Source: Telopea speciosissima (Eukaryota; Streptophyta; Magnoliopsida; Proteales; Proteaceae). Taken from it: a stretch of 64,000 bases of DNA. A model generated the notes under the pieces. It was not told the DNA's origin and ran no database searches. It was given only the letters and a program-made list of their open reading frames with translations. Every line of letters starts with the position of its first letter. The stretch's first letter is position 1. Below are positions 4,798-60,475 of the stretch, one piece after another. The DNA lies in the NCBI RefSeq assembly GCF_018873765.1, contig NC_057923.1, positions 57,716,593 to 57,780,592 on the forward strand, in the 5' to 3' direction. Made by a program: the position numbers and the translations under genes.

Positions 4798-7700
4798 TTA
4801 AGTGCAGATGGTAATAGGAAATGGGTATGAAACCGAGGTGGTTGTTGAAGCAGAAGACAAGCCTTCTCCCATCAAACCATTCTCCCCTCCTTTCTTCTTC
4901 TCCTCACTAACCATGTAACCTCTCTCTGAACCACCAGAATTCTCAAAAATCACATCCAAGCTCACACTACTCTCTTTGCTCCCATCAAAGAAGAAATCTA
5001 TGCTCTCTTCGAAACCCGAATAATTGAACAACTCGGGCAATTCGCTGGGTTTTTCATCGAGGCCAATCCCGGGAACCGGAAGCGGGTTTGGGTTGAACCC
5101 GGGTTCGATACAGAGGTGGTTCCATGGGTGTTCTTCTTTGGGTGGGTCTATCACATTAAATGATTGATTCTGATTCTGATTCTGACGATGAGCGGGATTG
5201 CCGGAATCAGGTGTTCCTAGCTTGGGAATCTGAGGTGGGGGAGTGGCCTCTTCTTGTGATTCAGGGAGGTGGGTGGTGGTGATGATTTGTTGGTGTTGTT
5301 GTTGCCTTTGTAGTTGCTGAAGATGCACAAATTGCTGTTGTAATAGTTGCCTTTGTAAATGTGGTTTTAAATGTTTAAGGTAGCGGCTAACATCAAAATT
5401 GGTCACAGCATTCAAGCCTCTGTACTCCAAGGCAGCAAGGTCATATGCTTCAGCCGCTTCTTCTTGGGTACCTATTAACAAAAAAGCCCATCTCTAAGGA
5501 CACTACCAAATGTAATAAGGTTGTTTAACATTAAATTCGGATACGGATCCGGGTTTGGGCTTCAATGTTACCCCTTAGTCAAGGGTGGAACCCGAACCTA
5601 ATATGAAAACCCGGTCCATAATATGGGTCATAGTTTTTACTGGTAAACAAGACTAAGACTAAACCAGATTTGACCAGGATCAAGAATTCAACCCAGGCCA
5701 GCCCACTAGAAGATTGGACTCATATTTGAACTACATTGTCACAAATCTGATTCGACCTAGGGGTGTCAACCGGTGGGGCCGGGTCAGTTATGATTGGCCC
5801 TAATAAGTCCTCACCAATTTAAGGCCCCACACCATTACCAACCACTTGGGTAAGCGGTCAATGGACTAATTGGCTTATCGGGCTATGAACGGACCGGACC
5901 TTAAACGGGTTATAATCGGGGTAAATACAGCTTTGACACCCAAATTCGGCCTTTGCCAAATTCCTCAATTTCCAATCTATCCCAACTAGCCCGAGTTCTG
6001 TTGAGATCCGGGGCATTAGTGTTGGTATGATCGCACCCAACCCAACTAGCCCGAGTTGTCTTTTATATAAATGAGAAACATAAAAGTTGTGTTTGGTATG
6101 CATTCTAGTAATAGATTCTAGGTCTAAAACGCTAAAGAAAAATCAGATTTTAAAATACGTTATTGGCCGTGAATCTATTCCAAGGATGCATACCAAACAC
6201 AGCCTTAAAAAGACAAAACAATATTATTTAACAACCAAACCATACCAAACTATACTCCCAAAGTTGACTCCGGTCAAACAACCCTCTAAAGCCCAATCAA
6301 ACGACTGTAAAATGAAGGCGACATGCGTGGGATCAGCTATAAAATTTGTTACATGCAATGTGGTCCCCACATGACCATCACCACCCAATCTAACCATGGA
6401 TTGAGAGCAAGCAAATCCTTTAATACCCTTTTTCTCACGTGTACACACCAGTTTAGTTACACGTGTCTTACATTGGATTGAGAATCTCACGTACTACCCT
6501 TTTTGCATGGCCCTACACGTGTACTTCTGCACGTGTTCCCCATATGGTTCATGCATGCGATCCTCAATCCTATGCAATCCACCCCCACTAATCGACAAAT
6601 AAATCACCTCTCGCCGTCGCCGTCACCGCTGCCGCCGGCGAGAGAGAGTTAAAACAGAGAGAGAGAGAGGCTTTACTGTAAGTGCCCAAGTAGAGATACT
6701 TGTTCCCAAAAACACGACCGATCCTTGCTTCCCACCTTCCATTATGATGGTGCCTAATCAAGAACAAGAATCCGGTAAATCGCGTTACATTCCGGTCGCC
6801 GAAAAACCCAAATTCCGGCCAAAAAAATTAATAAAATGAGCTTACCTGGCAACCCCACGATATTTAGAAACACCTCTGGCAAAGCCACTGCTTTTTCTCC
6901 TCAGCATTGCCAAGTACTCTTCCTTAGACACACTCTGCATTGCTTCATATTCCTTATCATAGGTAGGAAACTGCATTATTTTTATAAAAAAAATATTAGA
7001 AATTTATTGTATTAAAATGGGTAGTCAAATTGAAATTTATTATAAATATACCGGAAAATTGAGAATGGTATCAGCACCCCAATACTTAAGAGCAGCAAGA
7101 TCGTAAGTATGAGCTGCGGCTTCTTCATCATCATAAGCTCCTGCAAAAAATTTCATTTTTATAATTTTTTGTTCCAAACTTCCAATCAAAACCCACATGC
7201 AGAGATGCTAACATGCGCTAAGAAAGATGAGAAGAGAAGAGAAGAGAGATTATATAAATAAAAAAATAATAATTAAAATTAATTAAAAAGGGAGAGATAG
7301 AGAAGTCATGCAGAGGAGGTCAGGGGAAGTTGCAGTTTGCTCACCCAAATAAACTAAAAGCGGCGACAAAAGCGGCATAGCCAACCAACGTTAGGATTTG
7401 CAGAGAACACCCCCCACAGAGAGAGATATTAAAAATAAATAAATAAATCAGAATCCATTAGAGATGAGTGAAATTAAAATTAAAAAGCTGATTAAAGATA
7501 ACAAATCTGATTTTTTTTTTTTTTTTTCCCCTCTGTAAAAAAGATTCTATAGTTGTATCACCTTGTCGGCCTTTCTTGTTTTGAATGGGATTCCATGAAC
7601 CCTTATCCCAGAGATGAGCTTCATACCTTCCTGTCCATCTATGCCTGATTATGAGCAACATTAACATGCAAGAACATTTAAAAGATACCCAGATGGAGAA

Positions 7701-11364: not shown

Positions 11365-13000
11365 TTTCATTAGCCCTTGAATATATACTCTAACTCTATG
11401 GATGGACTTTATTTATGTATTAATTTCTTGTTATCATCTCACATTTAGACCTATTATCCATATAAGACACTACTCATTTGGCAAGTTTCAGCCCAAAATC
11501 ACAACTTAAAGAGAAAAACTTTGAAACACAATTAACAAAGTAAATAATTTTTACATTAATTAAACCAATAAAAATAAAATTAATACATGATAGATCATAT
11601 GATTGATATGTACAATAGAATTTTGCTCCTGACACATATAGACCATCAGACCCAATGGCTAGAATGGCCTAATCAATTGTCCAGAAAACCATGTCTCATA
11701 AAAGGGGTGTAAACAGATCGGATGTGATCAGATCCAGATATTCCTTGCCAGGATACGGATATCCCTAAACAAATATGGATGCGAAACGAATTCGGATTTT
11801 CGACTATCCGTTTACATCTCTAATTTGTGTAAACTAGGCCTAGCTTCCTCCCCTCAACAGACATGATTCACTCTCAATCCTTGTTTTAGTCTCATAAATC
11901 TCCTTTCCTCATTCTTTAGAACCTGTTGAATCTTCAAAAACCCTCTATATCATTAGTTGGATACCTATTCGGGTCTGATAATTTTTTTTTCCGAATTATT
12001 TGAATAAAAATTCGGATACCCCTAAATGAATCGAATTTGAATTTTTGAGTACCCGTTTACATCCCTAGTTCATAATACCTACAACAATAACAACAACAAT
12101 AGAGGAACCATATGTTTAATACTAAAACCCTATAGGAGTTTGTAAACCCTAGGTTGATGTGGTTAAGGAAAACTTTATCCTTAATTTTAACTTTATTTAC
12201 AATTTCAGATACGCAAGATGGATATTGAGGGGGAGGAAGGTTAGGGTTATAGAATTGGTTAGTCTCCTCTCTAGCTAACTACCTTTCACTTTTTATTTTG
12301 TTGAGTTTAAAGGGCATTAGGTTGCCGACTTGATAGAAATAAAGGGTAGGTTTGCTTTTTCAAAAAATTCAAACTCTCTCAACAGGGTTTCTTGCAAGCC
12401 ATTTATTTAGTTAAAGAGTTGGAGGGTGGAGAAGAACTAAGATTGGACTCACAATGTCCAAAACCAAATTACCAAAACCTCCTCGGGTCAAACCTATATT
12501 CCCTTTCATATGCTCTACAAAGAAAATGGAAATATTGATACTCTTTAAGAGTGAAACATGCACAAAACACTGGGTTTAAAGTATTCTTCTTCTACCAAAC
12601 AGTTTTGAGGCCTATTGGTCCACCTCCTTTGGACCTTGGGAAACCGGTTGGACCATTCAGGTTGGGCCATTTCAGTTTTGAGAATATATATATATATATT
12701 GCGTCTACTCAGGCAAACCCAAGTATGCGGTTCTCTTTCCCACCTCCTGTGGGCCTTGGGAAACTCCCCACTTAATTTAATTCCTTAGTTTTTAGATTTG
12801 AGGATCGATTCTAAGGTTCTTGAGATTATTTTCCGATTACAATTTCAATTTGAATCAAAATTGACATGACCAATTTGATCCCCGATTCCAATAGTTGAGA
12901 CATTGTTATTTGAGACACTGAACAAAATTGAAACTCGACAGATATAAGCAACAAACTTGAGATCTACCTATCCAAAATTTCTGCCCTTTCTGAATCACAA
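10690..13000. other. Intergenic, repeats only
   Basis: Contains a (GA)n tract (11335-11364), two decayed blocks like the hAT-like MITE (11703-11825 with TGTAAACAG / TTTACATC, and about 11955-12070), and one copy of the AAACCCTATAGG repeat near 12120. No gene. Confidence 0.45.
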
Positions 13001-29349: not shown

Positions 29350-30689
29350 TTTTTTTTTTGTCGTTTTGGACGATATACTATATAGGCAAACGGTGTCTTA
29401 TTCGTATAAACTATAAAGTTATCAAAATTTTCTTCCTTTAAGCAAGTGTTTGGCCACTTGCATTAGTACTCACCAAAAAAATAAAAAATAAAAAAAATCA
29501 TTACTTTGCATTGAGTTCACATTATTGGATGAAGCTTTTTTCACGTATCAAGCTCTTCGCCACATCGTTTAGAAGGAATTTGAAATTTATGGGTGAAGGT
29601 GATTAATCTGATGAGTCGGGCCACATTGCATCGCCAGATGTCCGCATTGCAAAGGATTTTAATCTATCATCACCACCACCTGCACCACCCACCACACCTC
29701 TCTCTCTCTCTCTCTCTCTCTCTACACCCTCCCTCCCCTACAACCCTGTACCACCATGCTCCCCTACCCCCTCTTTGTACAAACCCCACCCCACACCTTC
29801 CTTGGGATGAATCTGGATCAACTACCCACATGGGGATGGGTGGGGATTGATCTGATCTCCCTTTGGATCCGACTCCTCTCCAATGAGCCCGCCACCCAGG
29901 GAGTGCCCAATGAGCATCCGACGGCTAGGCTAGTTGGCATGCATTTTCAGGTGCATGCTGAGATGTGTGCCAGCCAGCCCAACCCTTGGATGGCTCATTG
30001 GGCACTAATTGGGCGAATTCTTCATTAAAGAGGAGCTTGACGCCCCTCCTCCATGTTGATTTCTAACATCGCCTACACCAAATCAATGATTTTCAGATTC
30101 CCACTAATTATCCCTCCATGCCCTATTGTAGGTAGCAGAAGGCTTCATGGAAAGACCCCCCTAATGAATTGATCGTTGCATGTAAATGGAGGTCCACATG
30201 TCTCTATATGAATCACCATGCATAGGTAATTCATAGCATAGCATATTTCAAAAAAATCCTCTGCAGTGCCTTGTAATTTGGGCTTGCGAGCTCAACACGT
30301 GAAAGATGCGACATCCAACGATGCCGAGCTTGAGAAGAAAGAAAAAAAAACTGAGTCAATTAAGCTCCCATCGTTGGATTAAGCATTTTCCACGTGTCGA
30401 GCTCATAGACCCAAACTGCAAAGCACAATAAGTCAACAAGATGAAGGAGTTGGAGAGGATTTTAATCCAAACATTTCCCTTACGTGGTATTCCCGTACGA
30501 GTACGCTCAATGTTTTCCTTATTTTCGATTGCAAATACGAAATAGAATCGGATTCGGCCGATCCATGGCCGATTTGCTTACTTCCTTGCCTAAAAGGCTT
30601 AAACATCTCGGTTTAGAAAATGTAGGCTGGGCCTCTTCGAATGTTGGGCCGACCCAAATCACTAAAATGCCCATATCTATTCCTATTCA
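29350..30689. promoter_or_regulatory. Divergent intergenic region between the unknown gene and TFIIIA
   Basis: It serves two opposite promoters. A TATATAG motif at 29378-29386 could serve the unknown gene. The middle holds a (CT)n run (29697-29723) and a TIR element (30250-30430). No ORF here is convincing. Confidence 0.35.
30250..30430. mobile_element. TIR element with ATCCTCTGCAGTGC end, related copy at 41.0-41.2 kb
   Basis: The left end is AAAATCCTCTGCAGTGCCTT; inside are the mirrored phrases GAGCTCAACACGTG and CACGTGTCGAGCTC. A related, inverted arrangement occurs at about 41015-41205 (GGCAGTGCACTGCGGTAGGA ... CACGTGTTGAGCTC ... GGTGCACTGCTGAGGATTTT). This copy lies in the intergenic space before TFIIIA. 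Confidence 0.55.
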
Positions 30690-30702
30690 GATATATATAA
30701 TG
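30690..30702 (+). promoter_or_regulatory. Possible TATA box of the TFIIIA gene
   Basis: ATATATATAATG lies about 220 bases before the TFIIIA start codon, in the right position for a 5' UTR of about 190 bases. There is no other support. Confidence 0.35.
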
Positions 30703-30919
30703 TAATAATGGCTAAGGATCCGTAAAGAAGGAGAAACGAGAATCCATCTCACATCTCATTAGGGCTACAGTTTCCAGACTCTCTAGTCTCCACTTTTAGG
30801 GTTTGCGGCAGCAGCCTTCACTTCTCACTTGGAGCTTGGGACTTTCGATCGGCTGGGAAGGTGTTCATCTATCCTCAGGGGAAGAGAGATCTTTTCAAGC
30901 AAAGAAAAATCTAGTGGTG

Positions 30920-33900
30920 ATGGAAGGAACGGAAAGAGAAGTCCCTATTTTCAGGGACATAAGGCGCTATTACTGCGAGTATTGTGGCATTTGCAGGTCC
31001 AAGAAGTCGTTGATCACCTCGCATGTACTTTCCCGCCATAAGGTTTCACCTCTTTCTCCTTATTTGCTCTTGAAGTTTAAAGATTATGGAAGTTTCACAT
31101 TTTGTTCGTGTTGATGGTATGATTTGCTGCTGGGATTACTGATTTTGTGTTTTAGTTTCACTTCGCTGTTCATTCTTGTTGGTGGAGAGGGTATAATCAA
31201 GGGTTTTAATTGGGGATTTCAGAAGCTGCTCTTATTTTTCTTATTCTGTTCTGTTTTCTTTTTCAATTTAGGATGTGGTTGAGGAGAAGAGACTCGATGA
31301 AAATGAAGGAGAGGTGGAGGAGAAGTCCAATATTTGTGAAGAGTGTGGTGCGAGCTTTAAGAAACCTGCATATTTGAAGCAACATATGCAAAGTCATTCG
31401 CTTGAGGTATTTTATCTGCTACTGCCACTTCCCTTTCAATTTTTCTTGCTTTCTCCTCCTCCGTTACCTTCTTATTTTATTTTTTTCCTTGGAAGTTTTA
31501 GCATGTTATCCCTTTCTGAAACTGTTAATATTTGACTTGTTGATTCCCTCAGCATTAAAATATTGAACATTTCCGACTCGAATTGCTTACCACTGATTCT
31601 GGTTTGATATTCTTTTATGTAGCCCTTTTTCCTTTGTGGGTTTTGATCTTTGGCGCTTGGTACTGGCAGATCGATGCCAGGCTGTGTTTACAATTTCTGC
31701 TGTGTTAGATTTTTTTTTTACTATATCCTTCTTTTGATTGCCGAAGATTTATTGGAGACTGATTTTGTTTCCTTTGAAGTAAAAGGAAACAGTTATGGTT
31801 TTCGTGGGGTGGTGATCCAGTTGAACTAATGTTTGAAATCCATTTTATTTTCCTGGTCACGGTGCAAAATGTTAAAACGAGGTTTTGTGGAGGCCTTGCC
31901 TTGATTGTGTATGACTTGTTCAATTGAAAAATTATTCTAAAAATTGTCGAACAAGATATTAGTTATTGGCATAATGGTTCAGACATGGCCATGAGGTTGG
32001 AAGTTTTTCAATGAAATTAATTGACAAGTTGAACAAGGTTGTATATAGTCCATTACTGCATGCTTGGTAGAGCGACATAACTGTTTCAAATACTTATGGC
32101 CACAGGATTTCTTATTTATTTATTTTTATAAATTCTGTTGCTTTCCATAAGCATTGAGATGGTTTTTTGGTGCCTCTCTTTTTTCCCCTTTTCTTTTTTT
32201 CTGTTACTATGTTTTCTAATGATTATGGTTATTGTGGAAACCAGTGGATGTTAGTGTGAAGCATTGGATCCCATTTGAAGAACTCCAAAATGCGAGAGGC
32301 TTTGTAGATTTAATCTTGAATGGACCAGTACCAGGTGGGGGACCTCCTGAGAAGCTCCATCAAGCAAGCCTCAGTCACGCACTGTCTCACTTGTAAGGAT
32401 TTATGATTTTTTCATTTGTTATTTTTAATTATGACCATATCTTCAACATCTATCTTTTATGGAGCATGCTCTTGTGCGAATATTCTGCAGAGGCCGTTTA
32501 CTTGCCCAGTAGATGACTGCCAATCAAGCTACAGGAGAAAAGATCACTTGACCCGTCACCTGCTCCAGCATCAAGGGAAGCTTTTCAATTGTCCTGTAGA
32601 GAACTGCACTCGTAGATTTGCATTTCAGGGTAATATGAAGCGGCATGTGAACGAGATTCATGAAGAAGATGGGTCTTCCTCTTGCAACACTGGGGGTCAA
32701 AAGAAGCATGTTTGCAAGGAGTGTGGAAAGGTTTTTGAATTTGCATCAAAGCTGAGGAAGCATGAGGATTCCCATGGTAAATTATGTTACTGAGCAGGCT
32801 CTCCCTACCCCCTCTCTAGATATTAGACTGATCCCTTTTGTGTTAAAGGATATTAAGTGTATCAAGAGCTTCCTATGGGTCTATACCAGTTTCCATTACA
32901 TCATTTTCCGTTACCCCCACTTATGAAAATAGGGGGAAAAGGCTAGGCACACTGCCCACATACCGCAAACGGGTGCCTCTCTCTCTCTTGATTCTTCCCC
33001 CTTTGAAATGATTCCTCTACCTCTCTTGTATGATGCCCTTTCCCGTCCTGTGAACCCATTGGTTTAGCCCTCTAGCTTACCCCATCCAGGCGATGTGGCT
33101 ACCCCTCTTCCATGAAAATATTACCACTTATGAAAACAGTTTAACTTGTATTGGCTTGTTATAGCTTTTGTAATGATAATTTTGCTGACAAGTTTTATCA
33201 TTACAGTTAAACTAGATACTGTAGAAGTGGTTTGTGGTGAGCCAGGCTGTATGAAACACTTCACTAATGATGAATGCCTTAAAGCCCATGTCCAGTCATG
33301 CCACCAACATGTCACCTGTGAGGTTTGTGGACAAAAGCATCTGAAGAAGAATATCAAACGGCATCTGCGGATGCATGAAGCAGGAGTTTCATCCAGTGAT
33401 ATCAAATGCAGTTTCAAGGGCTGTCGGCACACATTCACAACTGTAAGACTTTCCTGTTTTCTTTTCAACATTACATTTTTGTTCCCTATTTCAGTCTGTT
33501 AAACCTCCTTGAAGAAACTCAATTGTTAACTTCTATTTTGTAGTAATTTGCAGGTGGAGGTTAACTTATTCTAGACCAAAGATATTTTTTTAATCCCCCC
33601 CCCCCCCAAAAAAAAAAAAGAAAGTAAATTAAGAACCTTGTTGTAACTATAAATCCTTCTTCTCTATTATTAAATAACATTATTAATACAATAATAATAT
33701 ACCAATATCTTTTTCTAGTTGGATTACCTTCAGAAGGAACCAGAGCATCAAGATTTTCTTGTGTTATTCATTTCAGTTCTTTCTGAAAGCCACCTAACAA
33801 TATTTAGTTATTTGCTGTTACTAGCAGAAATCAAATCTCAATCAACACATAAAGTCAACACACCTTGAGGTCAGACCATTTGCCTGCCGAATTCGTGGAT

Positions 33901-34284
33901 GTGACAAGAAGTTTCCATATAGACATGTGAGGGATAATCATGAGAAATCTGGAATTCATATCTATGTCCATGTAAGTCTCTAGGCACGAGCCTTCAATCG
34001 TGTTGTGTGCTGTGTTTTTGAGCATGAATTTGGTTATTTATATGTTGACATGTAGCAGAAATTTGGCTGATATCTTGATTTTATTGATTTATGTCTAGGG
34101 GGATTTTGAGGAGTCTGACGAGCTATTCCGGTCAAGACCAAGAGGCGGGCGTAAAAGAGCATGCCCTAGTGTGGAGACTTTGCTACGGAAGAGGGTAACC
34201 CCACCTAGTCAGATGGATTCTGTTACAAACCAGGGACCAGAATACATTGCATGGTTACTTTCTGAGTTAGATGATCAACCGTGA
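30920..34284 (+). CDS. TFIIIA: Transcription factor IIIA (nine C2H2 zinc fingers)
   Basis: Six coding exons: 30920-31042, 31272-31406, 32491-32776, 33207-33442, 33828-33971 and 34099-34284. All introns are GT-AG, and the product is 369 aa. Nine C2H2 fingers follow in order, starting with [22 protein letters not shown] (C19, C22, H35, H40) and [22 protein letters not shown], and ending with a finger containing [20 protein letters not shown]. The C-terminus has [11 protein letters not shown], as in plant TFIIIA. The protein binds the internal control region of 5S rRNA genes to recruit TFIIIC and Pol III, and also binds 5S rRNA; it acts in nucleus and nucleolus. The spacer between fingers 4 and 5 is only about 17 residues, much shorter than the long one I recall in Arabidopsis. 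The ATG at 30920 is the first in frame that gives a normal N-terminus. An alternative exon between coding exons 2 and 3 controls output (separate entry). Confidence 0.95.
32245..32392 (+). promoter_or_regulatory. Plant 5S rRNA mimic (P5SM) alternative exon of TFIIIA
   Basis: The segment between TFIIIA coding exons 2 and 3 copies 5S rRNA blocks in order: GGATG near the start, TTGGATCCCATTTGAA then GAACTCC (helix III/loop B region), GCGAGAG, and CAGTACCAGG then GGGGACCTCCTGAGAAG (helices IV/V, loop E). It is bounded by an AG acceptor (32243-32244) and a GTAAGG donor at 32393. Included, its 148 nt shift the frame and put a TGA at 32257-32259, so the mRNA would be a decay target. Established work on plant TFIIIA shows that this mimic is bound by ribosomal protein L5, which promotes skipping and so full-length TFIIIA. 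Exon ends here are from splice sites, not transcripts. Confidence 0.92.
32930..33120. repeat. MITE-like repeat in TFIIIA intron, related to copy near 42.5 kb
   Basis: The segment starts with GGGGGAAAAGGCTAGGCACAC and ends near GATGTGGCTACCCCTCTTCC. A similar order of motifs, GGGGAAAATGTTGGGCACAC to AATGTGCCTATCCCTCTCC, occurs at 42478-42640. The ends are weakly inverted. Both have a TTCCCCCTTTG(A)AATGA core. Confidence 0.55.
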
Positions 34285-34289
34285 GATAT

Positions 34290-35599
34290 ACAGTTTGTTG
34301 GAGATGGCATTTGTAGTAATAGTTTACCTTTTGTTCTTAAAATATATATACATAGGATGTATATAGATCTAAATGCATTATTGCATTGTAATCAACCTCG
34401 TTGTTTATCTAAAGCGTAACCACCTAATTGAACATTGTTTCCTCTGATGTAAATGGTATTTGGAGTGGATTGAACTCCATGCAGTATAATGCTCTGCAAT
34501 TTCTAATGCTGTCATGAATCTGCTAATGTTTAATAGGAAATTGTTTTGATGTTGCATTTGTCTGTTTGCACCTTTTTTATGAAATCAGGTGGGTTTACTG
34601 TTTTAGTTGCAACCAGCTTAATCATGGGCTGGTGGCACCCCCAAACAAGTGATAATCAGCTTTTAGAGTGGAATTCTGATACAGCAGATGCACTCATACT
34701 TTTCAGGAGCAGTTGTAAAAGGCTCTGTGGAGAGGAGCATCCCCACAGTTTATTGCCATCACTACAGAACCCAAGTTGAAAATATTGACGTGGTAGTATT
34801 TCTACGGTGACGCATTTAACAGAGCAGATTGAAGTTTAAGGTGTCAATCATCTTGGTGATTTAGCAATGGATGCTATTATTCATTTTATCAAGTTCTGGG
34901 TTTTAAAACTGAGAATTGGAATCCGGGTAGTCCCGGTCAGTGCCGGTTGATTTCGATCTGGACCCGGCCAAACTACCTCACCCAACACCCAAATCTACAA
35001 TTAACCTAAAGAGTTGATACAGGCAACAAGTGCTCATAAATCATAAATGTTCCTGTAGATGTTTTTGTTTTGTGGGTATTTATTGTTGCTTAAACTTTGA
35101 AGATTTCATCTCATAACCTTGTCATGAAGCAAGTAAACAAGTTTTAAAATTTATTTGAAAAAATGTTTAACTTTGTTTGCTTCAAGAAAAAAAACCTTGG
35201 AAAAAAGGGTAACAATTCAAATCATTCCTTCTTGTGAATCTTACCCCCTCAATATAAACTTGGAACTAATATGAGATGAGGCAAAATATATGGATGAAAT
35301 AGCTAGCTAAGATCTCCTTTGAACAAAAGTCGAGCCATAAATTTCACCAAAATTGGTTCTCTATTGTCTGATCAGATTAGATTTGAGGAAATACAGAAGC
35401 ACCTTTTGAATTGTTTTGATGAGCTATTGGTGTGTTAAAAAAGAAAAGACAGATAAGAAAAAGAGGGCCTCAAACGAAAAATGTAATTGCTCAAATTTAG
35501 GCCACTACTTGTAAAGTTTTTCCAAATTCCACTTTTATTCAATTAGTTGTAGACAAAATCTGTTAAATCTTTGTAATTGCTCAAATTAACATGGGCTAA
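34290..35599. other. TFIIIA 3' region, no further gene
   Basis: Holds the TFIIIA 3' UTR, with AATATATATACAT near 34340. Further on are AT-rich DNA and a short GGTCAGTGCCGGTTGATTTC-type decayed repeat at 34915-34980. Nothing else supported. Confidence 0.4.
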
Positions 35600-37095
35600 T
35601 TACTCTCCTATATTTACTCAGTCTTCTTTATCTCAACCTTTTTAAAAAAAAAAAAAAAAAAAAACTTCCTCACGTCTTTGTCCTCCTGTAATTCAAATTC
35701 TTAAATTACTCATAATACTCTTCCCTTCCTTCCCGTTGACCTCCCATCCGGTAGCCCCTCTGGTGCCCTCTGCAGCTCTTTTGTGTTTATCCATCTATTA
35801 CTCTCTTGCTTGCTTGCTTGCTCAGTCACTGGTTGTTTTAACACTGTTACCACTTCATTTTCTACCTCACTTGCCACTACCGCGCACAAGAACGTGAAGG
35901 CAGAGAAGGGCAATCACTCATTTTAAAACCATCATTCTTAAGACCAAAGAGTGGCGAAAAAGGGAGGAAACCTCTCTGTTCCTAGCTCTCCTGTAGTTGG
36001 ATTCTCTAGAACCATAAGAATCCTTAGAATAGAATTATAACTCAATACCTTAATTTCATCGAAGAGATAGATAAAAACATCAATACAGTCTAACAGATGG
36101 TTTTGGTTGAGATCTTGACCTGAAATGCCAAGACTAAGTCTGTCGATATAGGCTTGATGGTGCAATTGATCACAAGACCTTCATATCAAAGATACCTTTG
36201 ATCACTTACGAGGATCTTCAGCCTGAGATCCAACGCATTGCTAATGGTGGAGCGATCACCATTAGCAATGCGTTGATGCCAGGCTAAAGGTACTTTTAAG
36301 CGATAGCACGTATGATGTATCTTCGATTTGAAGATATCGGTCACACTATTAAGATTATATCCCAAAGGTGCTCAATCTCGGCATTTCGGATCAACACTAG
36401 ACTAAGTACCTCCGTCGATATAGGTTTGATGGTACAAATGATCACAAGACCTTCAAATCAAAGATACCCTTGATCACTTACGAGGATCTTCAGCCTGAGA
36501 CCCAACACATTGCTAATGGCAGAGCGATCACCATTAACAATTTGTTGATGTCAAGCTGAAGGTACATCATACATATGTAAGCGATCATATGTATGATGTA
36601 TCTCCGATTTGAAGTTATTGGTTGCACCATTAAGATTATATCGATAGAGGTAGAGGTGCTCAATCTCGGCATTTCAGATCAAGATCTCTGCCAAAACCTT
36701 CTCTTGGACAACACCGAAGGTTTTGGTCATCTTTTTGATGGAGGCACCTTTGCATCCTTCTTGCAAGAGGCAGTGCCAAGTGAGTAAAAAGTGAAGTGGC
36801 AGCAGTCATTGTTAAAGCAGCCAGAGCAAGTGAGGAAGCAAACAAGAGAGTAATAATGTAATATGAGCATAGAGGAGATACAGAGGGACGCCGGAGGAGC
36901 TGCTGGACCGGAGGGGTGGTCTACTGGAAGGAGGCCGGCAAAGGGGATTAGGGGTAATTTAGAGATTTTAAATTATCAAAGGGGAAAGAAAGATAAAAGT
37001 TTGTTTTGCTATGGGAATAAAAAAGAAGTTTGAATTAAAGGAATTTGAGTAAAGGACAGATGAAGTTTGAAGTAAAGGAATTTGAGTAAAGGACA
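35600..37095. repeat. Foldback of about 1.5 kb with two palindromic units in its centre
   Basis: The outer arms pair imperfectly: left arm at about 35600-35900, right arm at about 36780-37095 (for example GCAAGCAAGAGAGTAATA on the left arm's minus strand against GCAAACAAGAGAGTAATAAT on the right). The centre holds two tandem units, about 36107-36393 and 36394-36690. Each is itself a palindrome around GGAGCGATCACC or AGAGCGATCACC. No transposase reading frame is visible. Confidence 0.75.
36107..36690. repeat. Tandem pair of about 290-bp palindromes
   Basis: Each unit has arms with CAAGACCTTC, ACGAGGATCTTCAGCCTGAG and CATTGCTAATGG, mirrored by CCATTAGCAATGCG and AGGTGCTCAATCTCGGCATT in the first unit. 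The two units differ by roughly 10 percent. Each could form a long hairpin RNA if transcribed. Confidence 0.75.
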
Positions 37096-45554: not shown

Positions 45555-48500
45555 TCAACATTTGGGAAGATCAGATGGTGGTGGTGGCAACTTCTGATTG
45601 GGGCTTGCTCCATCTAAGACAATCCATGCCATCTTCAATCCCCAACTTGTGTGGACTTCCAAATGGCAATGCATGAACCACACCCCTGTTGACAAGTCAT
45701 CATCCAAAGAAAATCAAATAATTTCTATATTATTATCTCATGTTATATTATGGAAAATTTGGCACCAGAAATTTAAAAAAGAAAAAAAGGATGGAAAATA
45801 TTGTGACCTCTGGATCACATTAAAGAGAGTTTCATTAGGCAGCCCATGAAGAAGTCTGTAATTGAATTTCAGTCACATGGGCTGGTGGGCTTCTTCTACC
45901 TAATTCTGGGCCCAAGTTGAGCCCAGCCCTATATGCTTGCTTGAATATTAAAAATAAAAATAAATAGCATAACCTGTGTGAAGATGATGACAATTAATAC
46001 AAAATCTTGGGGGCCCAAATTAATATTGTGAAAAATCTTCAGGGTTAACCTTATTTATCAATTACACCTTAAAAAACATTAGGGAGAGTGTTTCTGAAAG
46101 GCAGCGTGGCTCCTACACAGAAGCATTAACAGGGATGGGATTTCCGCCTTTCATGGAGGCGGGGTAGTCATGTTGTGTCCTCTGTGTCTAGGCCATGGTG
46201 CCTTTCAGGGTTCTTTTTCCGAAAAATGTATTTCTTACTCCCTTTATTTTTTGGGGTTCCTAATCATGGATCAAGGTATTGGTATCATATCAATTGATAT
46301 GTAGTATCAATATTGTTGGAGATTGATACCAATACAATACCTATACCAACTTCAATCGTAGGTAACAGCCGATACATGGTATTTTTTAAAATTCCGTTCA
46401 ATCTTAAACCAATATGGCTCGATACGATATCAATACAGAGACCGATACGGCCTCCGATACCGATACCTATAACCTTGTGAGGTTAGTAAAACCCTAAAAT
46501 TTTCATATTAAAACATTAGATTAAGCAAACCCACCTGGATTGTCTGCAAGGAATCGAATGGCAACCCAACCACCAGAAGGTACCCCGATAGTATTCCTTT
46601 CAACCGGGTCAATAAGATTGAACTTAGGTGGGTCCTTTTTAGGATCAAAGTTACCAAATCCTTGGCCAAAAACAAAGAAATTGAATCCATGAAGGTGAAG
46701 AGGGTGACTCTCTGCACCTAGTATGCTAGTGTCCTGCAACACCAGCTCTACACTTGTGTTATAGTTCAACACCACAACCTTGGTACCATTACTATCCATA
46801 GTGTTGTTAGGGGGAGTTCCTGTATAGTTGAAGGGAATAAGTGGGCTTTTAGGGAAGTCAGTTGTGTAGATACCTTTTGATGATTGCCCAAAGAAATGGG
46901 TTTGAAGGAGGGCTCTGTTTGGAAGAACAAAAGAGACATTATTTATGTTACCAGAAAATTTAGTGGTATTGGTGGGACCTTGGCAGGTTTGGTTCTTAGG
47001 GCATGGAGTTGTTCCTAAACCAACAGTGAAGAAGAAGTGTCTGTCCACAGTTTGAGGAACATTTGCAGGGAATGTAGTAGTGGCTAAGCTTCTAAATCTT
47101 TTTGTAAATTTTGTAACAAAAGAAGTGTCATTTAGGGAAGGGAGAGGTGGCTTAAAGAGTGGAAGGTTCTTAATTGAAGTTGGAAGAGAAGAAGAAGAAG
47201 AAGAAGTGGTTGGGTGTTCATATTCAAGGATTCCTACAGTGGTTGAGTTGTCAAAGGTACCACGGCCAGTGAAATAAGGTCTAGCTGCCATTAAGAAGGT
47301 GGCATTAGGGAATTTAGGTTTTGTCTTGAGGAGAACATTTGTGGTTTGTCCTGGTGCAATGAGGAGTGTTTTGGTGTTGAAGGGCTTCACATAAACTGCA
47401 TCAGCTTCAACTATTGTAACTGTATGATTGGCAATACTGAAGAAGAGCTCGTCGTTGAGCGCAGCATTGATCAAACGGAGGAGGTATGTCTTCCCAGGCT
47501 TCACCTTGAGCTTGAATGTATCTGCAAAAGTTTCATTAATGGAAGTGCACGTATGTGAGTAGCCTGATGTGGAGACTTATAGGTACTTGTGCACCTTCTC
47601 CTTAACGACTAGCTTTTAAGGATGAATTTTACCCAAGTTCCTACCTTTAGCAGAACAGTTGTACAAAGGACCTGGGAGTCCATTGATGGTGTAGGAATCA
47701 GAGACATTAGGACCGCCTCCAGTTTGTAGAGCCTGGTTGATCACTGCTTCTGTGTTTACATTCCACCATTCTCCTGAAAACACGTAACATGAGGAATTTA
47801 ACGTGGTTCAACACGAATGCCTACATCCACCTAAGAGAACAAGAGATTTTCCATTAAACCTGAAAAATTCTCTACACCACTATCCACCTCACAAAGTGAT
47901 CGACCCCTCTCCCTTTTGCTCGTTTTTAGGTTTTTCTACATAGACAATATATAGGGAACCCAAAAAACCCTAATCCACATACAGTTACAATTTTATCTCG
48001 TACATGTAATGGATCGAAAACTCGATTTAATTACACATACAAGCCCAATAATAATTATGTGAACCCATAGAATATAAGACACACCCAACCTCAACAAGAA
48101 CATGAGCCTGAATGAAACCCAGTTAACCAAATGTAATGCACTTCAATTTTTTGTTATTTTAGTTGCTTACCAAAGATGATGGGTACTTCCTTGTAGGGTT
48201 TGAGAAATGGGTAAGGAACACCATGCTTGGGGAGGATGATAATAGGTCCATAAAGGGTAGATCTCAACCATGAGATGTGGGCATGCCACAAAAGGGTCCC
48301 TCTCTGTCCAGTAATAGTGAAGTTATACACATACGACTGTCCTGTTTGAATAGGGCACTGAGTTATATATGCTGGTCCATCTGCCCATCCACTTCTAAGC
48401 TGTCGAATTCCATGCCTGTTCCAATTTAAACCATGTTAATTCACAGTAAAGAAGATAGCTAATTGAGTGAGTTGGAGAAAGAGAGAATGATCTATATATA

Positions 48501-52223: not shown

Positions 52224-55200
52224 TCAACATTTGGGAAGATCAGATGGTGGTGGTGGCAACTTTTGATTGGGGCTTGCTCCATCTAAGACAATCCATGCCA
52301 TCTTCAATCCCCAACTTGTGTGGACTTCCAAATGGCAATGCATGAACCACACCCCTGTTGACAAGTCATCATCCAAAGAAAATCAAATAATTTCTATATT
52401 ATTATCTCATGTTATATTATGGAAAATTTGGCATCAATAATTTATAAAAATAAAAAATAAAAAAATAAAAAAAAAGATGGAAAATCAAGGATCACATGAA
52501 GCTTCGGATTCAAGTTTCATGAAGATGGGCTGGTGGGCTTCTTCTACCTATTTCTGGGCCCAAGTTGAGCCCAGCCCCATATGCTTGCTTGAATATTACA
52601 AAAAAATATCATAAATAGCATAACCTATATGAAGATGATGGCATTTGCAAAAGCTTGGGGTCCAAATGAATAGTCTGAAAAATCTTTAAGGTTAACCTAA
52701 TTTTATCAATTACACCTCAACAAAAATTAGGGTGAGGGTTTCTGAAAGGCAGCGTGGCTCCTACACAGAAGCATTAACAGGGGTGGGATTTCCGTCTTTC
52801 ATGGAGGCGGGGTAGTCATTTCATGTCCTCTGTGTCTAGGCCACGGTGCCTTTCAGGGTTCTATTTCCCAAAGCTTTATTTCTTACTCCCTCTATTTTTT
52901 GGGGTTCCCAATCATGGATCAAGGTATTGGTATCATATAAATCGATATGTGTCGGTATATTGGAGACTGATATATGGTATTTTTTAAAATTTGGTTCAAT
53001 CTTAAACCAATATGGCTCGATACGATATCAATACGGAGACCGATACGGCCTCCGATACCGATACCTATAACCTTGTGAGGTTAGTAAAACCCTAAAATTT
53101 TCATATTAAAACATTAGATTAAGCAAACCCACCTGGATTGTCTGCAAGGAATCGAATGGCAACCCAACCACCAGAAGGTACCCCAATAGTATTCCTTTCA
53201 ACCGGGTCAATAAGATTGAACTTAGGTGGGTCCTTCTTAGGATCAAAGTTACTAAATCCTTGGCCAACAGCAAAGAAATTGAATCCATGAAGGTGAAGAG
53301 GGTGACTCTCGGCACCAAGTATGCTAGTGTCCTGCAACACCAGCTCTACACTTGTGTTATAGTTCAACACCACAACCTTGGTACCATTACTATCCATAGT
53401 ATTGTTAGGGGGAGTTCCTGTATAGTTGAAGGGAATAAGTGGGCTTTTAGGGAAGTCAGTTGTGTAGATACCTTTTGATGATTGCCCAAAGAAACGGGTT
53501 TGAAGGAGGGCTTTGTTTGGAAGAACAAAAGAGACATTATTTATGCTAGCAGAAAATTTAGTGGTATTGGTTGGACCTTGGCAGGTTTGGTTCTTAGGGC
53601 ATGGAGTTGTTCCCAAACCAACAGTGAAGAAGAAGTGTCTGTCCACAGTTTGAGGAACATTTGCAGGGAATGTAGTAGTGGCTAAGCTTCTAAATCTTTT
53701 TGTAAATTTTGTAACAAAAGAAGTGTCATTTAGGGAAGGGAGAGGTGGCTTAAAGAGTGGAAGGTTCTTAATTGAAGTTGGAAGAGAAGAAGAAGAAGAA
53801 GAAGAAGAAGAAGTGGTTGGGTGTTCATATTCAAGGATTCCTACAGTGGTTGAGTTGTCAAAGGTACCACGGCCAGTGAAATAAGGTCTAGCTGCCATTA
53901 AGAAGGTGGCATTAGGGAATTTAGGCTTTGTCTTGAGGAGAACATTTGTGGTTTGTCCTGGTGCAATGAGGAGTGTTTTGGTTTTGAAGGGCTTCACATA
54001 GACTGCATCAGCTTCAACTATTGTAACTGTGTGGTTGGCAATGCGGAAGAAGAGCTCGTCGTTGAGCGCAGCATTGATCAAACGGAGGAGGTATGTCTTC
54101 CCAGGCTTCACCTTGAGCTTGAATGTATCTGCAAAGGTTGCATCAATGGAAGTGCACATATGTGAGTAGCCCGATGTGGAGACTTATAGGTACTTGTGCA
54201 CCCTCTACTTAACGGCTAGTTTTTAAGGATGAGTTTTACCCAAGTCTTTAATACTAAATGATGGAGATTGATTATGCTGAAGGAAGTACCTTTTGTAGAG
54301 CAGTTGTACAAAGGACCTGGGAGTCCATTGATGGTGTAGGCATCAGAGACATTAGGACCGGCTCCAGTCTGTAGAGCCTGGTTGATCACTGCTTCTGTGT
54401 CTACATTCCACCATTCTCCTGAAAATTCAATATGGTTCACTACGAATGCCTACATCCACTTGAGAGAATAAGAGATTTTCCACTAAACCTGAAAAATTTT
54501 TTACACCACTCTCTACCTCACAAAGTGACCATCCCTTGTTCGTGTTTAGTTTTTTCTACAAAGACAAGGAACCCAAAAAACCATAATCCACATATAATTA
54601 CAATTTTACTCTGTACATGCAATGGATCAAAAACCCGATCTAATTACACATACAAGCCCAATAATAATCATGTGATCCCGCAGAATATAAGACACACCAA
54701 CCTCAACAAGAACATGAGCCTGAATGAAGCTCAGTTAACCAAATATAATGCACTTCAATTTTTTGTTATTTTTGTTGCTTACCAAAGATGATGGGTACTT
54801 CCTTGTAGGGTTTGAGAAATGGGTAAGGGACACCACGCTTAGGAAGGATGATAATAGGTCCATAAATGGTAGACCTCAACCATGAGATGTGGGCATGCCA
54901 CAAAAGGGTCCCTCTCTGTCCAGTAATAGTGAAGTTATACACATAAGACTGTCCTGTTTGAATAGGGCACTGAGTTATATATGCTGGTCCATCTGCCCAT
55001 CCACTTCTAAGCTGTCTAATTCCATGCCTGTTCCAATTTAAACCATTTTAATTCTCAATAAAGAAGATAGCTAAATTGAGTGAGTTGGAGAAAGAGAGAA
55101 TGTTATATAGATAGCTTTTAATTTAGTCCTTACCAATGCAAGCTAATATTGTTTTGGACATGGTTAACCACCTTGATGAGAACCTGGTCACCCTCTCTAG

Positions 55201-55604: not shown

Positions 55605-57248
55605 CAGGTAGGGAATGGTCAATTAATTAGATGATAGCCATAAGTAATATCACTGTAGAGAGTATTTGACTGGGCCAGAGTTGTTGCTGACTTGCTGTTG
55701 GTTGAGCTTAACTTTAGAGTAATGTCAAAGTCATAATATTTTTTTTACCAAAATACCCTTTTTGAAGGGGACTTTTAGTGATGATTTTGACCAATCTTTC
55801 CATGTAGGGAATTGGAGAAAAGCTTTAATATTGCTTTCATGTTCATGCAATATTGGAATAGTCTTAGTCTTCACAAGCAAAAGTGACAGAAAATAAAGTT
55901 ATAGATCAGTTCTTGCATGGAGGGTATTATTGACATTAATGAGTATAAAGTTTTCCTAACCCATATATATTAATTCTTCGAAACCAAGCCAAACCAAAAG
56001 GGTTAACATCTCTTTGGTTGTTCATGTTTCTTCATGAACCAAGTGGAAATCTATTATAATATATTTATATCTCTCACTATACATTTATTGTTGAGAGACA
56101 AGTGGAGGGCCAGTAGTGTTTGGCCTTAGCTTATGGTGGGTGCTCTGGTGTTGGTATATCTGTAGAGTTTTCCGGCAAAGAGGAAGACATTTTAACCAAC
56201 ACAATCCTCCCTGGCCAGCTTAATTTCCTTCTAAAGCAAAGAATTCACAATGGATGGAACATTGGAACATATGGTCTCTTCAAGCTTTTTTTTTGTTTTT
56301 ATTTCTATTTATAGTTTGCTAGAGATTTTTTTTTGTTTTCATTTTTTGGTGCAAAGTTTGCTAGAGATGATGATTCATTCAGAAATAGAACTAAAACTAC
56401 AACAATAAAAATAGAAGAAAAAAAAGCCTTAGCTGTAAATACTTAGCCGTTACTTTAATTCTACATCCTCAACACCCCTCAACCTCAAAAACCTAAAAAA
56501 CTTTCAAAAAAAAAAAAAAAAAAAAAGGGTTTGTTTTATCTCCATCTTGATAATGGTTCAAAATCTAGGTATCGGACTCGGGATCGGTCAAACTCGACTT
56601 GGATCGTTAAAAATTCATCAAAATCCAGGTTTTTATGGATTGGGCTTGGATTAGTAAAAAATATAAAAAATCGATACGGATTGGTAAAATAATAAAAAAG
56701 GGTCAAAAAACCCAAAAAAAAATGGCAAGTAGTGGATCGGATTGGCTGATCCAACTGAGTTGACCGATCCAGGGAACAATCTAGGAATACTTTGACAAAT
56801 CGGTCTAATCTTGGGATTGATCATGGCCGATACCAATCCGATCCAAGATTTCGAACCATGATCTTGACTCCTCTCTCTCTCTCTCTCTCTCTCACTACAT
56901 GCTTGATGAGGTGCTTATTTGAACTCTATATGAGTGAAGGAAAACCTAATTCATAGAATTATGTCACGTTGATACATATTTGTACCAAAAAAATAAAAAA
57001 TAAAAATTCTTGATACATAATTTATGTACCAAGTATGGTTTAACTTCTTCCCTCTCCCCCTCTAAGAGTGTTAATCGGTTTGGCTTTGGTAAGTTTGTTC
57101 ACGATACAGAATGTAAAACCCAAAACCAAACAAATTCAATTTCAAAACCAAAACTAAACCATTCGGATCGGTTTCAGTTTCTATTCGGTTTTGTATTCAA
57201 TGGGTCCTTACTCGGTTTAGGTCCTATCACCCACAATGGAATTTCACC

Positions 57249-58064
57249 TGATACATCCAATATTCACCGGGCCAACCAACGACCGCCACGTGTCACAGAC
57301 GACCCGCCCCATAGCCAAGGGGAACGAACCGGAGTCCCAGCCCCACTCGGGGGCGGCCACTACTCGGGCGCGGCCACACATCCGGGGCGCGGCCTCACCC
57401 AGGCGCGGCCCCCTCACCTAGGCACGACCTCACCCAGGCGGCGGCCTCCTCACCAGGCACGGCCTCACCCAGGCGCGGCCTCCTCACGAGGGCGCGGCCT
57501 CCTCAACAGGGCGCGGCCTCACCCAGCACGGCCTCACCCAGGCGGGGCCTGCACCCAGACACAGCATCGTGGGCACGTGAGGTGGGGGCCACCCATCTAC
57601 GACCCTTCGTATCGCTGAGACTCATGTCACTATCAGGACTCTTGACCGCCGCTTAGAGGTCACGTCACCCAGACGGATTCAAGCACCAAGGACGTTATCA
57701 CCACACGCGGGTATCTATCCACCAAGGATCCTGATGCCACCAGGACACTCCCTCCCACGGGGAGATGGCCAATCAGGATAGAGCCCCGTTACCCAGGGCC
57801 TCTATCCACTCAACGGCACAATTGCCATCAAACTGGGACTCTCCACACCGCCATATGCTACTATAAAAGGCAAGGTACACAACCCCATCCGGGACATCTA
57901 AACTCATACTGAATAATCACTATTCATCTGTTTGCGCCAGGAGATCTAACTTTGGCATCGGAGAGCCCTAGGCCGGGACCACACCGGTTCTCTCTGTTGA
58001 CCCCTTTGGTCCGCTTGCAGGTGACGGCACTCGTAGGACCGCTCGACGATTTCTTGACGCAACA
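57249..58064 (+). mobile_element. LTR A, solo LTR of a Ty3/gypsy element
   Basis: It starts TGATACATCCAATATTCACC and ends TTTCTTGACGCA plus ACA. TCACC flanks it on both sides (57244-57248 and 58065-58069), a 5-bp target duplication. It has a GC-rich minisatellite at about 57346-57555 and a TATA motif CTATAAAAGG at 57861. The uninterrupted target is seen in laccase unit 1 at about 50822. No internal region adjoins it. Young: about 1 percent from LTR C outside the minisatellite. Confidence 0.9.
57346..57555. repeat. GC-rich minisatellite inside LTR A (longer in B and C)
   Basis: Units of about 15-20 bases on the theme GGCGCGGCCTCCTCACCCA, variably spaced. LTR B has about 275 bases of it (59683-59957) and LTR C about 325 (62095-62420), against about 210 here. 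Long ORFs in these tracts are by-products of GC-rich repeats. Confidence 0.85.
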
Positions 58065-59573
58065 TCACCAATAAAAAGTATAGATTGGTAGCCTCCAACT
58101 ATTAATATGTGTTGGCTTGAATATACTGCACAATCCATAAAAAAAAAGGTGATAAGATCTTGTTTTGTGAAGAATCAAAGAAATCATAGTTCAAAGTTAA
58201 CAATTTATATATATTTAATCATTTGGATTCATAAGGATGAATATATGCTCGTGATATAATGATTTCGGAGTGCTTTTGGTGATACCGCATCGAACCAAAT
58301 CGAGAAAATATTCTTTATTTTTAAATCAAAACAGAACCTATTCTTCTTCGATTCGATTCGAATGAGTTTTAAATGGTTGTTTTCATTTCACTCGTAAGAA
58401 AACAACATCCGAATGGTGATTTGCGGAAGAAATACGAAAAATAGAGAAGAACAAGCACACACAAACACACAAGATTTACGTGGTTCACCCCAAGAAGGAA
58501 GCTACATCCAGGGCCGAGCAAATGAGCGAATTTCACTATTCTTTGGAAATGTTACAAAACCTCATTGATCCTCTCAAAGATAAGAACATTATATAAAGAA
58601 GCCCTAATCCGAAGAAGTACAAGAATACTCCTGGACACAGAAATTGGCAAATCGAACAAGGTCGGACCAAAACATAACGTACACCATTTTTCGACAATCC
58701 GAGATCGTTTCGAGGCTGAAATAGCCCTCCGAAGATCTCAACCGCACATTCTGGACCAAAAAATAAGACTTCACCAATAACAAGTTTCAAATTGACACCC
58801 TTACCCTCTCCCACCAAAAATAAATAAAAATTTTTATGATCTAACCAATATTATGATTAAGATTAAGATTAGTTAGAGATATTGAAAAAACTAAGTTAAC
58901 ATACTTAGATATCATTGAGCTAGGGACCTAATTCTTGAGGTAGAAGGGTCGGTAGAAAGATTTCATGATTAAAAGGACTAACCAGAACAAAGGAACAGTT
59001 GTTGAGAAATCAATTTTAAAAATCTTGATTAAGAAATAAGAGTTAGAGTTAGAGTAAGCCATTAATGACGAAAAAGATGGGAGTTCTGAATCGGCATTAT
59101 CAAAAGATGAATTCTATCCAAACAAAGAGTGAGAACCAAGCAAAGAAATAATTTATGGAAAAATCGGTTTCAGATCATAAAAAATAGCTATTTCCACTCT
59201 TAGTGGGAGTTTCTTTCTTTTTAAAATGGACAAATAATTTGTCAAACAGAACCTCTTGCTTTGGAAGTAAAAAATGAAGAATTAATAGAACAGATCGAGA
59301 CCCTACGAATTGAAGGGGTCCAAAATATATTTCACTTAGCTTTTAACCAAACAGAATTTGATTTACATTGAAGTCATGCATTACTTAAGAATTACATAAA
59401 ATTTAACCAAACAAATTAACCCTACTAGCCTTCTAGAAAGATTAATAACCAAGTCCTTGATAAACTACGGATCCTGATCTTCTACGGTGCATCGCTCATA
59501 GCGGTCTTAGTGGTGCACTCACAGGGCTGCACACAATATCCGGACATCCTATCCCAAGAGAGTGGGGGGCAAA
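58065..59573. repeat. Spacer S, copy 1, of the duplicated LTR-spacer unit
   Basis: It contains the tail of laccase unit 2 (to about 59043), about 400 bases of other DNA (59044-59450) with no gene, and about 120 bases that look like the 3' internal end of a gypsy element, finishing with a purine-rich tract AAGAGAGTGGGGGGCAAA directly before LTR B. It is repeated almost exactly at 60476-61992. Confidence 0.85.
58392..58782. mobile_element. Copia-like solo LTR in spacer copy 1
   Basis: About 390 bases that include ACGTGGTTCACCCCAAGAAG and AGGAAGCTACATCCAGGGCC, and end AATAACA. The sister copy at 60806-61201 shows matched ends TGTTA and TAACA. It is absent from laccase unit 1. Noncoding; ORFs across it are chance. 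Confidence 0.65.
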
Positions 59574-60475
59574 TGATACATCCAATATTCACCGGGCCAA
59601 CCAACGACCGCCACGTGTCACAGACGACCCGCCCCATAGCCAAGGGGAACGAACCGGAGTCCCAGCCCCACTCGGGGGCGGCCACTACTCGGGCGCGGCC
59701 ACACATCCGGGGCGCGGCCTCACCCAGGCGCGGCCTCCTCAGGGCGCGGCCTCCTCACCCAGGCGTGGCCCCCTCACCTAGGCACGGCCTCACCCAGGCG
59801 ACGGCCTCCTCACCAGGGGCGGCCTCACCTAGGCGCGGTCTCACCCAGGCGCGGCCTCCTCACGAGGGCGCGGCCTCCTCACCAGGGCGCGGCCCCCTCA
59901 CCCAGGCGCGGCCTCCTCACCAGGCGCGGCCTCACCCAGCGCGGCCTCACCCAGCGGGGCCTGCACCCAACACAAGCATCCGGGCACGTGAGGTGGGGGC
60001 CACCCATCTACGACCCTTCCTATCGCTGAGACTCATGTCACTATCAGGACTCTTGACCGCCGCTTAGAGGTCACGTCACCCAGACGGATTCAAGCACCAA
60101 GGACGTTATCACCACACGCGGGTATCTATCCACCAAGGATCCTGATGCCACCAGGACACTCCCTCCCACGGGGAGATGGCCAATCAGGATAGAGCCCCGT
60201 TACCCAGGGCCTCTATCCACTCAACGGCACAATTGCCATCAAACTGGGACTCTCCACACCGCCATATGCTACTATAAAAGGCAAGGTACACAACCCCATC
60301 CGGGACATCTAAACTCATACTGAATAATCACTATTCATCTATTTGCGCCAGGAGATCTAACTTTGGCATCGGAGAGCCCTAGGCCGGGACCACACCGGTT
60401 CTCTCTGTTGACCCCTTTGGTCCGCTTGCAGGTGACGGCACTCGTAGGACCGCTCGACGATTTCTTGACGCAACA
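59574..60475 (+). mobile_element. LTR B, recombinant gypsy LTR
   Basis: It starts TGATACATCC after a polypurine tract, as LTR C does, but is followed by ACATCACCAATAAAAAG, as LTR A is. The minisatellite (about 59683-59957) resembles LTR C in order and length; the part after about 60050 carries the LTR A bases. TATA motif at 60272. Confidence 0.88.

Follow-up and report, generated by a model that had tools for sequence, protein, structure and literature searches.

The intron between coding exons 2 and 3 of the TFIIIA gene of Telopea speciosissima contains a segment that resembles 5S rRNA, and this raises the question whether the segment is a cassette exon of the P5SM kind, i.e. a 5S rRNA mimic that controls the splicing of TFIIIA. 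The P5SM exon of plant TFIIIA was reportedly described by Hammond in 2009 and by Fu in 2009. All positions refer to the window, the whole stretch of 64,000 nucleotides that was analysed.

Gene structure and splice sites

The coding exons of TFIIIA and the elements of the mimic exon were located as follows.

30920-31042, plus strand: TFIIIA coding exon 1, finger 1 (gene model)
31272-31406, plus strand: TFIIIA coding exon 2, finger 2 (gene model)
32243-32244, plus strand: 3' splice site AG of the mimic exon, preceded by C (CAG), with 7 pyrimidines among the 17 nucleotides upstream; predicted to be paired with the 3' end of the exon
32245-32392, plus strand: 148-nt segment of the intron that separates coding exon 2 from coding exon 3, very probably a cassette exon of the P5SM kind (flanked by AG and GT, with blocks of 5S and a 5S-like predicted fold, and better conserved than the introns)
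32257-32259, plus strand: premature TGA, fifth codon after the join to exon 2; the last exon junction lies 802 nt downstream of it
32393-32394, plus strand: 5' splice site GT of the mimic exon, CTT/GTAAGG (sequence)
32491-32776, plus strand: TFIIIA coding exon 3, fingers 3-5 (gene model)
33207-33442, plus strand: TFIIIA coding exon 4 (gene model)
33828-33971, plus strand: TFIIIA coding exon 5 (gene model)
34099-34284, plus strand: TFIIIA coding exon 6, including the stop codon (gene model)

When the six coding exons were joined without the mimic exon (skipped form), one intact open reading frame of 369 amino acids was obtained. Nine C2H2 fingers were counted in the protein by eye, with a motif scan as guide. 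Pfam reported zf-C2H2, and the matches to solved structures included the TFIIIA chains 1tf6, 1tf3 and 8ffz, which ranked below other C2H2 proteins.

The mimic exon follows the finger 2 exon and precedes the exon that begins with finger 3, which is the position of P5SM. Its inclusion adds four codons followed by the TGA at 32257-32259, so that translation stops far 5' of the last junction, and its skipping restores TFIIIA; this pair of outcomes is also that of P5SM. A stop codon far upstream of the last exon junction usually marks an mRNA for decay. Judged from its sequence, the included-form mRNA, which ends after two zinc fingers, is a candidate for nonsense-mediated decay.

The original prediction had given the exon as 32245-32392 with flanking AG and GT, the stop at 32257-32259 and joins to 31406 and 32491, all of which proved correct. 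The splice sites had also been called good. They are the canonical AG and GT, but the wording was too strong for a tract with 7/17 pyrimidines and an exon end of CTT instead of CAG. The weak pyrimidine tract (7/17) would suit a regulated exon.

Similarity to 5S rRNA

The 5S rRNA of the species itself was taken from the 823 Mb genome that contains the window. There, 47 of 21,906 first-look candidates were scored, and all 47 exceeded the cut-off of the Rfam 5S family RF00001. The form that was commonest by eye (L014, 7 of 12 loci) was used as own 5S. The exon equalled it at 48 of 53 positions, which fall into two ordered blocks; the remaining sequence of the 148-nt exon gave no convincing alignment. 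Block 1, around helix III and loop C, was equal at 20 of 22 positions, the loop being enlarged by an insertion of 3 nt. Block 2, in the region of loop E, helix IV and loop D, was equal at 28 of 31.

The strict local 5S score of the exon was 37. This score was reached by none of 2000 shuffles of the exon (best 29) and by none of 100 shuffles of the whole window on both strands (best 33). An Arabidopsis-type 5S query was used in the shuffle tests, and own 5S gave an identical score for the exon. The claim that blocks of 5S rRNA stand in the right order inside the exon was thus confirmed by the 48/53 identity and by shuffles that never reached the score of 37. Ordered 5S blocks are a further property of P5SM, found here by block identity, by shuffles and by reciprocal model matches (see below).

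A covariance score below threshold had been named in the original prediction as evidence that would speak against it, and this outcome did occur, since RF00001 gave 15.9 bits for the exon against a cut-off of 38, short of membership in 5S_rRNA. The shortfall is not decisive because the family models 5S genes rather than mimics. At the gathering cut-off, no Rfam family matched in the whole window; with E up to 1 in the range 30000-36500, four matches to microRNA families were obtained, none of them inside the exon.

For the reciprocal comparison, a covariance model (R1) was built on three sequences, the exon and its copies on C6 and C9, with no 5S sequence in it. In the underlying alignment (A2), the C6 row is one base off at both ends, and no paired column is affected. 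R1 was searched against the window, two loci with 5S genes and two with L5 exons, and gave 18 matches up to E 5. Sixteen of these fell within the 5S loci; 13 were end-to-end matches, and the best had 21.4 bits (E 5e-4, with E-values only roughly calibrated). Ten end-to-end matches coincided with the ten 5S genes listed inside one of the loci (L006). The other two matches were the exon itself and a 10.6-bit match at 45737-45858. In the alignments of R1 with 5S, the seven GAGGCUU/AAGCCUC pairs had no counterpart in 5S, so that the score of R1 on 5S rests mainly on the two blocks.

Predicted secondary structure

The minimum-energy fold of the exon (-37.7 kcal/mol) was a three-way junction with 5S-like arms, and the predicted helices were retained when 0-100 nt of flank were added. 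The following elements were predicted.

32246-32249 / 32384-32387, plus strand: outer closing pairs GGAU/GUCU, mean pair probability 0.52-0.64
32254-32259 / 32375-32380, plus strand: closing (helix I-like) helix GUGUGA/UCACGC, moderate mean pair probability of 0.56-0.67
32261-32293, plus strand: helix II/III-like hairpin with the letters of loop C (GGAUCCCAU...AGAACUCC), 20/22 equal to own 5S, pair probability 0.85-0.92
32296-32372, plus strand: helix V-like arm with GAGGCUU/AAGCCUC, CUUGA/UCAAG and UGGA/UCCA, pair probability 0.80-0.97
32303-32314, plus strand: A/U-rich 12-nt bulge in the helix V-like arm, of which 6 nt are missing from the C9 copy
32327-32354, plus strand: letters of loop E (AGUA ... 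GAGAAG), helix IV-like hairpin CAGG-U-GG/CC-U-CCUG and GGGA loop D, 25/28 equal to own 5S, pair probability 0.98-1.00

The helix II/III-like hairpin is paired as GCAU-UGGA/UCCA-AA-AUGC. By the predicted fold and the linker shuffles described below, the closing sequences of helices I and V appear to have been replaced by new pairing sequences. The original prediction had stated that most of the helix I/V closing sequence is lacking; this holds for the sequence, which is lost, whereas the helices themselves are not missing from the fold, their pairing being predicted. Its 'A-rich middle' was found to be the 12-nt A/U-rich bulge at 32303-32314 in the helix V-like arm.

The 5S-like secondary structure, as expected of P5SM, is a matter of this prediction and of linker shuffles. 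When the three linkers were shuffled by single bases and the 5S-derived cores were kept fixed, 5 of 2000 shuffles reached the summed 5S-like pairing of 43.1 (mean 22.5, sd 7.6); this figure is generous because the segments were chosen after the fold had been seen. Single arms were unremarkable, each being reached by 80 to 556 of the 2000 linker shuffles. The energy of the fold was ordinary (z 0.19), being equalled or bettered by 120 of 200 shuffles and by 742 of 2000 linker shuffles, and fold stability was rejected on this z value as evidence for a mimic.

In comparison with 5S, one pair was read as changed on both sides with pairing kept (C29-G48 in 5S, U32265-A32287 in the exon). Among the three copies, no pair was changed on both sides, and a shuffle control of the counts was uninformative. 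In the C9 copy, pairing is kept in 35 of the 36 cells that contain letters, with one-sided changes in three of the 35, and all six inner closing pairs form, two with one-sided changes.

Copies of the exon and of TFIIIA in the genome

A DNA search of the genome with the exon gave three places, namely the window, C6:65707040-65707155 and C9:30719410-30719538. The C6 locus (L004) is homologous to positions 31434-34729 of the window, introns included. Ungapped matches were found there to the whole of exons 3, 4 and 6 and to 143 of the 144 positions of exon 5. No convincing match to exons 1-2 was present in the 22.6 kb upstream of the start of homology, and a genome-wide protein search gave no match to exons 1-2 on C6 among the best candidates scored. 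The C6 mimic carries a 33-nt deletion, by which the closing helix loses its 3' strands and the helix V-like arm most of those on its 3' side. The C9 locus (L005) is a fragment in which the mimic exon is nearly whole (140 nt) and the 3' splice site reads AT in place of AG. Homology at C9 jumps from 32402 to 32583, and the start of exon 3 is therefore gone.

A reading of C6 and the window as syntenic duplicates was rejected: between 27.7 kb of C6 and the 64-kb window, no homology was found beyond 31434-34729 except for a 268-nt match to 11812-12066.

Partial copies of TFIIIA were seen at several loci. They comprise the mimic plus exons 3-6 at L004 (C6), the mimic plus part of exon 3 at L005 (C9), exon 3 plus part of exon 4 at L034 (C10), the leader plus exon 1 on C3 (L036) and at two places on C2 (L037, L038), one of these with part of exon 2, and an exon 2-like stretch with intron at L035 (C11). 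The C9 and C10 copies were considered as processed copies that would prove splicing, and were rejected as such, intron sequence being kept in both.

Conservation of the exon

Identities were counted without gaps, such as the insertions of 2 and 1 nt in C6. In the comparison of the window with C6, 108 of 110 positions were identical in the part of the exon before the deletion (the exon core), and 1342 of 1595 in the introns (Fisher 5e-6). The best 98-nt stretch of the intron reached 94.9% identity, against 98.0% for the exon. The coding exons were identical at 781 of 852 positions (0.012 versus the exon core). Between the window and C9, identity was 124/139 in the exon and 230/315 in the intron (8e-5). 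Since the exon core is 98% and the introns are 84% identical to C6, selection has probably kept the mimic exon. Neutrality of one copy from the duplication onwards predicts about 8.7 changes for the 110-nt core; 2 were seen (P 0.008). On account of this deficit, the C6 mimic was probably functional for most of its history and broken late. This comparison within one genome suggests that constraint on the non-coding exon is no weaker than on the protein-coding ones, and that its closing helices are kept by pairing, not by sequence.

The unusual point of the genome is the second TFIIIA locus with a broken mimic, near which the exons for fingers 1-2 were not found. It may reflect a split of TFIIIA, in which the window gene makes the nine-finger, mimic-controlled protein and C6 a later-finger form free of 5S feedback. 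Exons 3-6 at C6 are open up to a slightly early stop. Over the 281 codons of exons 3-6, dN was 0.044 and dS 0.271 between the window and C6 (own count, last three codons dropped), and the resulting ratio of 0.16 is lower than would be expected had C6 been neutral since the duplication. With the C10 fragment used to polarise the changes in exon 3, the window branch received 5 silent and 5 replacement changes and the C6 branch 5 silent and 3 replacement changes; 2 were ambiguous. Just upstream at C6, no start codon in the reading frame of finger 3 was seen, which counts against such a split, and we consider it rather unlikely. The C6 copy is a natural test of TFIIIA after loss of the mimic.

The two decayed copies show that the element can be lost, and together with the weak pyrimidine tract they could point to an inactive relic also in the window, with homology and fold remaining and splicing regulation lost in the species. 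However, neither splice site, nor the stop, nor any of the arms is lost in the window, the copies resemble each other more in the exon than in the introns, and the core shows 2 changes against a neutral expectation of about 8.7 (P 0.008). A relic is very unlikely.

Further features of the window

A better 5S match than the exon was found on the minus strand at 5993-6038 (score 72). It is a 46-nt piece of true 5S that corresponds to the 5' end and is identical to own 5S at 42 of 46 positions, and the Rfam 5S family gave no match to it at E up to 10. Direct repeats of 22 nt (91% alike) are located near the piece at 5981-6002, overlapping its end, and at 6041-6062. When the piece with its flanks was compared to the genome, 40 of 50 candidates were scored; one was the piece itself, and 39 covered the 5S part only (query 32-87). 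From these alignments, the flanks look unique.

Positions 6083-6206 hold an element with 49-nt inverted ends that are 80% complementary (GTGTTTGGTATGC...) and with several matches to microRNA families below the cut-offs; it is probably a miniature transposon. An inverted-repeat stretch at 36168-36352 matched MIR821 with 31.4 bits against a cut-off of 249, and similar sequence follows from about 36420.

Two very similar open reading frames on the minus strand, 46521-47576 and 53119-54183, are about 6.6 kb apart. They resemble what we take to be laccase (multicopper oxidase) exons, and by their similarity are likely a tandem duplication. The open reading frames 57004-57618, 59429-60067 and 61848-62485 have Pro/Ala/Arg-rich stretches in common at a spacing of about 2.4 kb, which suggests a tandem repeat or a mobile element.

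Regulation and sensor

Exon anatomy, stop codon, skipped reading frame, 5S homology, predicted fold and constraint on the exon were all obtained from the sequence and by computation. The P5SM assignment is supported by the position in TFIIIA, the 5S blocks, the predicted fold, the stop, the reading frame of the skipped form and a constraint that is higher in the exon than in the introns. As a whole, positions 32245-32392 are best explained as a P5SM exon that serves an L5-sensing feedback on TFIIIA and 5S rRNA synthesis, and we hold this to be very probable.

Passages of the published work describe that L5 binds the mimic and causes exon skipping (PMC5972288, PMC5568362, PMC4538838), and that inclusion of the mimic exon leads to a premature stop (the same three sources and PMC6164485). 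In one model given in these four sources, L5 displaces a factor that favours inclusion. The L5 site on 5S rRNA is placed at helix II and loop C in a part of PMC6164485. The hairpin 32261-32293 of the exon retains the letters of loop C. L5 exons were found at two loci in the genome, on C7 and C3. The idea of a further mimic at these L5 loci themselves was rejected, as R1 had no match there at E up to 1.

By analogy with published work on other plants, inclusion would be the default, and L5 binding, skipping and decay would take place as described there. With the exon spliced in, the mRNA would stop after two zinc fingers and become a candidate for nonsense-mediated decay. Free L5 in excess of 5S rRNA would bind the 5S-like fold, the bound mimic exon would be skipped, and full nine-finger TFIIIA would be made, by which 5S rRNA synthesis would rise. 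The closing helix could conceivably reach over the 3' splice site, so that a folded, L5-bound form would hide this site. Equal pairing of the 3' site with the exon end was reached by 15 of 1000 shuffles of the last 18 nt of the exon, and such pairing is not special to this site, since among the five other 3' sites in TFIIIA, those of exons 4 and 5 were equally paired.

The original prediction had described TFIIIA as controlled by a copy of the binding structure of its own product. The presence of a 5S-like copy was upheld; the role of TFIIIA as its binder is not needed. Because the published sensor is L5, the exon copies the structure bound by L5 and need not act via TFIIIA. Direct control, with TFIIIA itself instead of L5 binding the loop E/helix IV-like part and directing its own splicing, would be compatible with a mimic. 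It could draw on the letters of loop E and helix IV, 25/28 of which are kept, and on the contacts of TFIIIA with helices I, III and V and loops A, B and E of 5S rRNA that a section of PMC6164485 describes. However, L5 is named as the binding splicing regulator in passages of PMC5972288, PMC4538838 and PMC5568362, and the sequence of helix V is not kept; TFIIIA as the sensor is very unlikely.

A chance likeness or a recent insertion of a 5S fragment into the intron has a negligible probability: the separate true 5S piece at 5993-6038 indicates that 5S pieces land elsewhere in the genome, but the 5S score of the exon lies beyond every shuffle made, the matches of R1 to the 5S loci speak against it as well, and the exon is old because it also occurs at two further loci, where intron sequence has diverged by 16% and 27% from that of the window.

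Comparison with known systems

The kind of element is already described, and the exon of the window adds the instance of one genome to P5SM. Relatives were sought with patterns of the TFIIIA protein and of the exon in collections of prokaryote and virus contigs, where little was expected, and none were found.

In its published description, the plant P5SM exon lies in TFIIIA after the first two fingers and brings a stop on inclusion and a nine-finger protein on skipping; it has 5S blocks and a predicted 5S-like fold. The exon of the window is alike in all these points. The TFIIIA mimic exon is reported as conserved in land plants in parts of PMC5568362 and PMC8909551, and a passage of PMC4374538 has it again across flowering plants.

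The included TFIIIA-7ZF mRNA is described in a part of PMC6164485 as holding a seven-finger open reading frame. Unlike this mRNA, the included form of the window has no in-frame AUG before finger 3. An AUG-started seven-finger product is unavailable here because past the stop the first AUG in the frame of fingers 3-9 is at 32635, in finger 4; the longest open reading frame downstream of the stop in the included form has 235 amino acids.

With 5S rRNA (RF00001), the exon shares two ordered blocks (48/53) and, in the predicted fold, the order of the arms. It differs from 5S rRNA in that the sequences of helices I, II and V are replaced and loop B is a two-nt bulge in the prediction, and with 15.9 bits versus 38 it is not a 5S gene.

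The HyP5SM cassette, according to passages of PMC4538838, is an engineered exon of the same kind, the skipping of which is triggered by rice L5. Unlike the exon of the window, it is synthetic and was engineered to be unresponsive to dicot L5. The exon of the window adds an instance to a well-established RNA switch that links the supply of a ribosomal protein to 5S rRNA synthesis.
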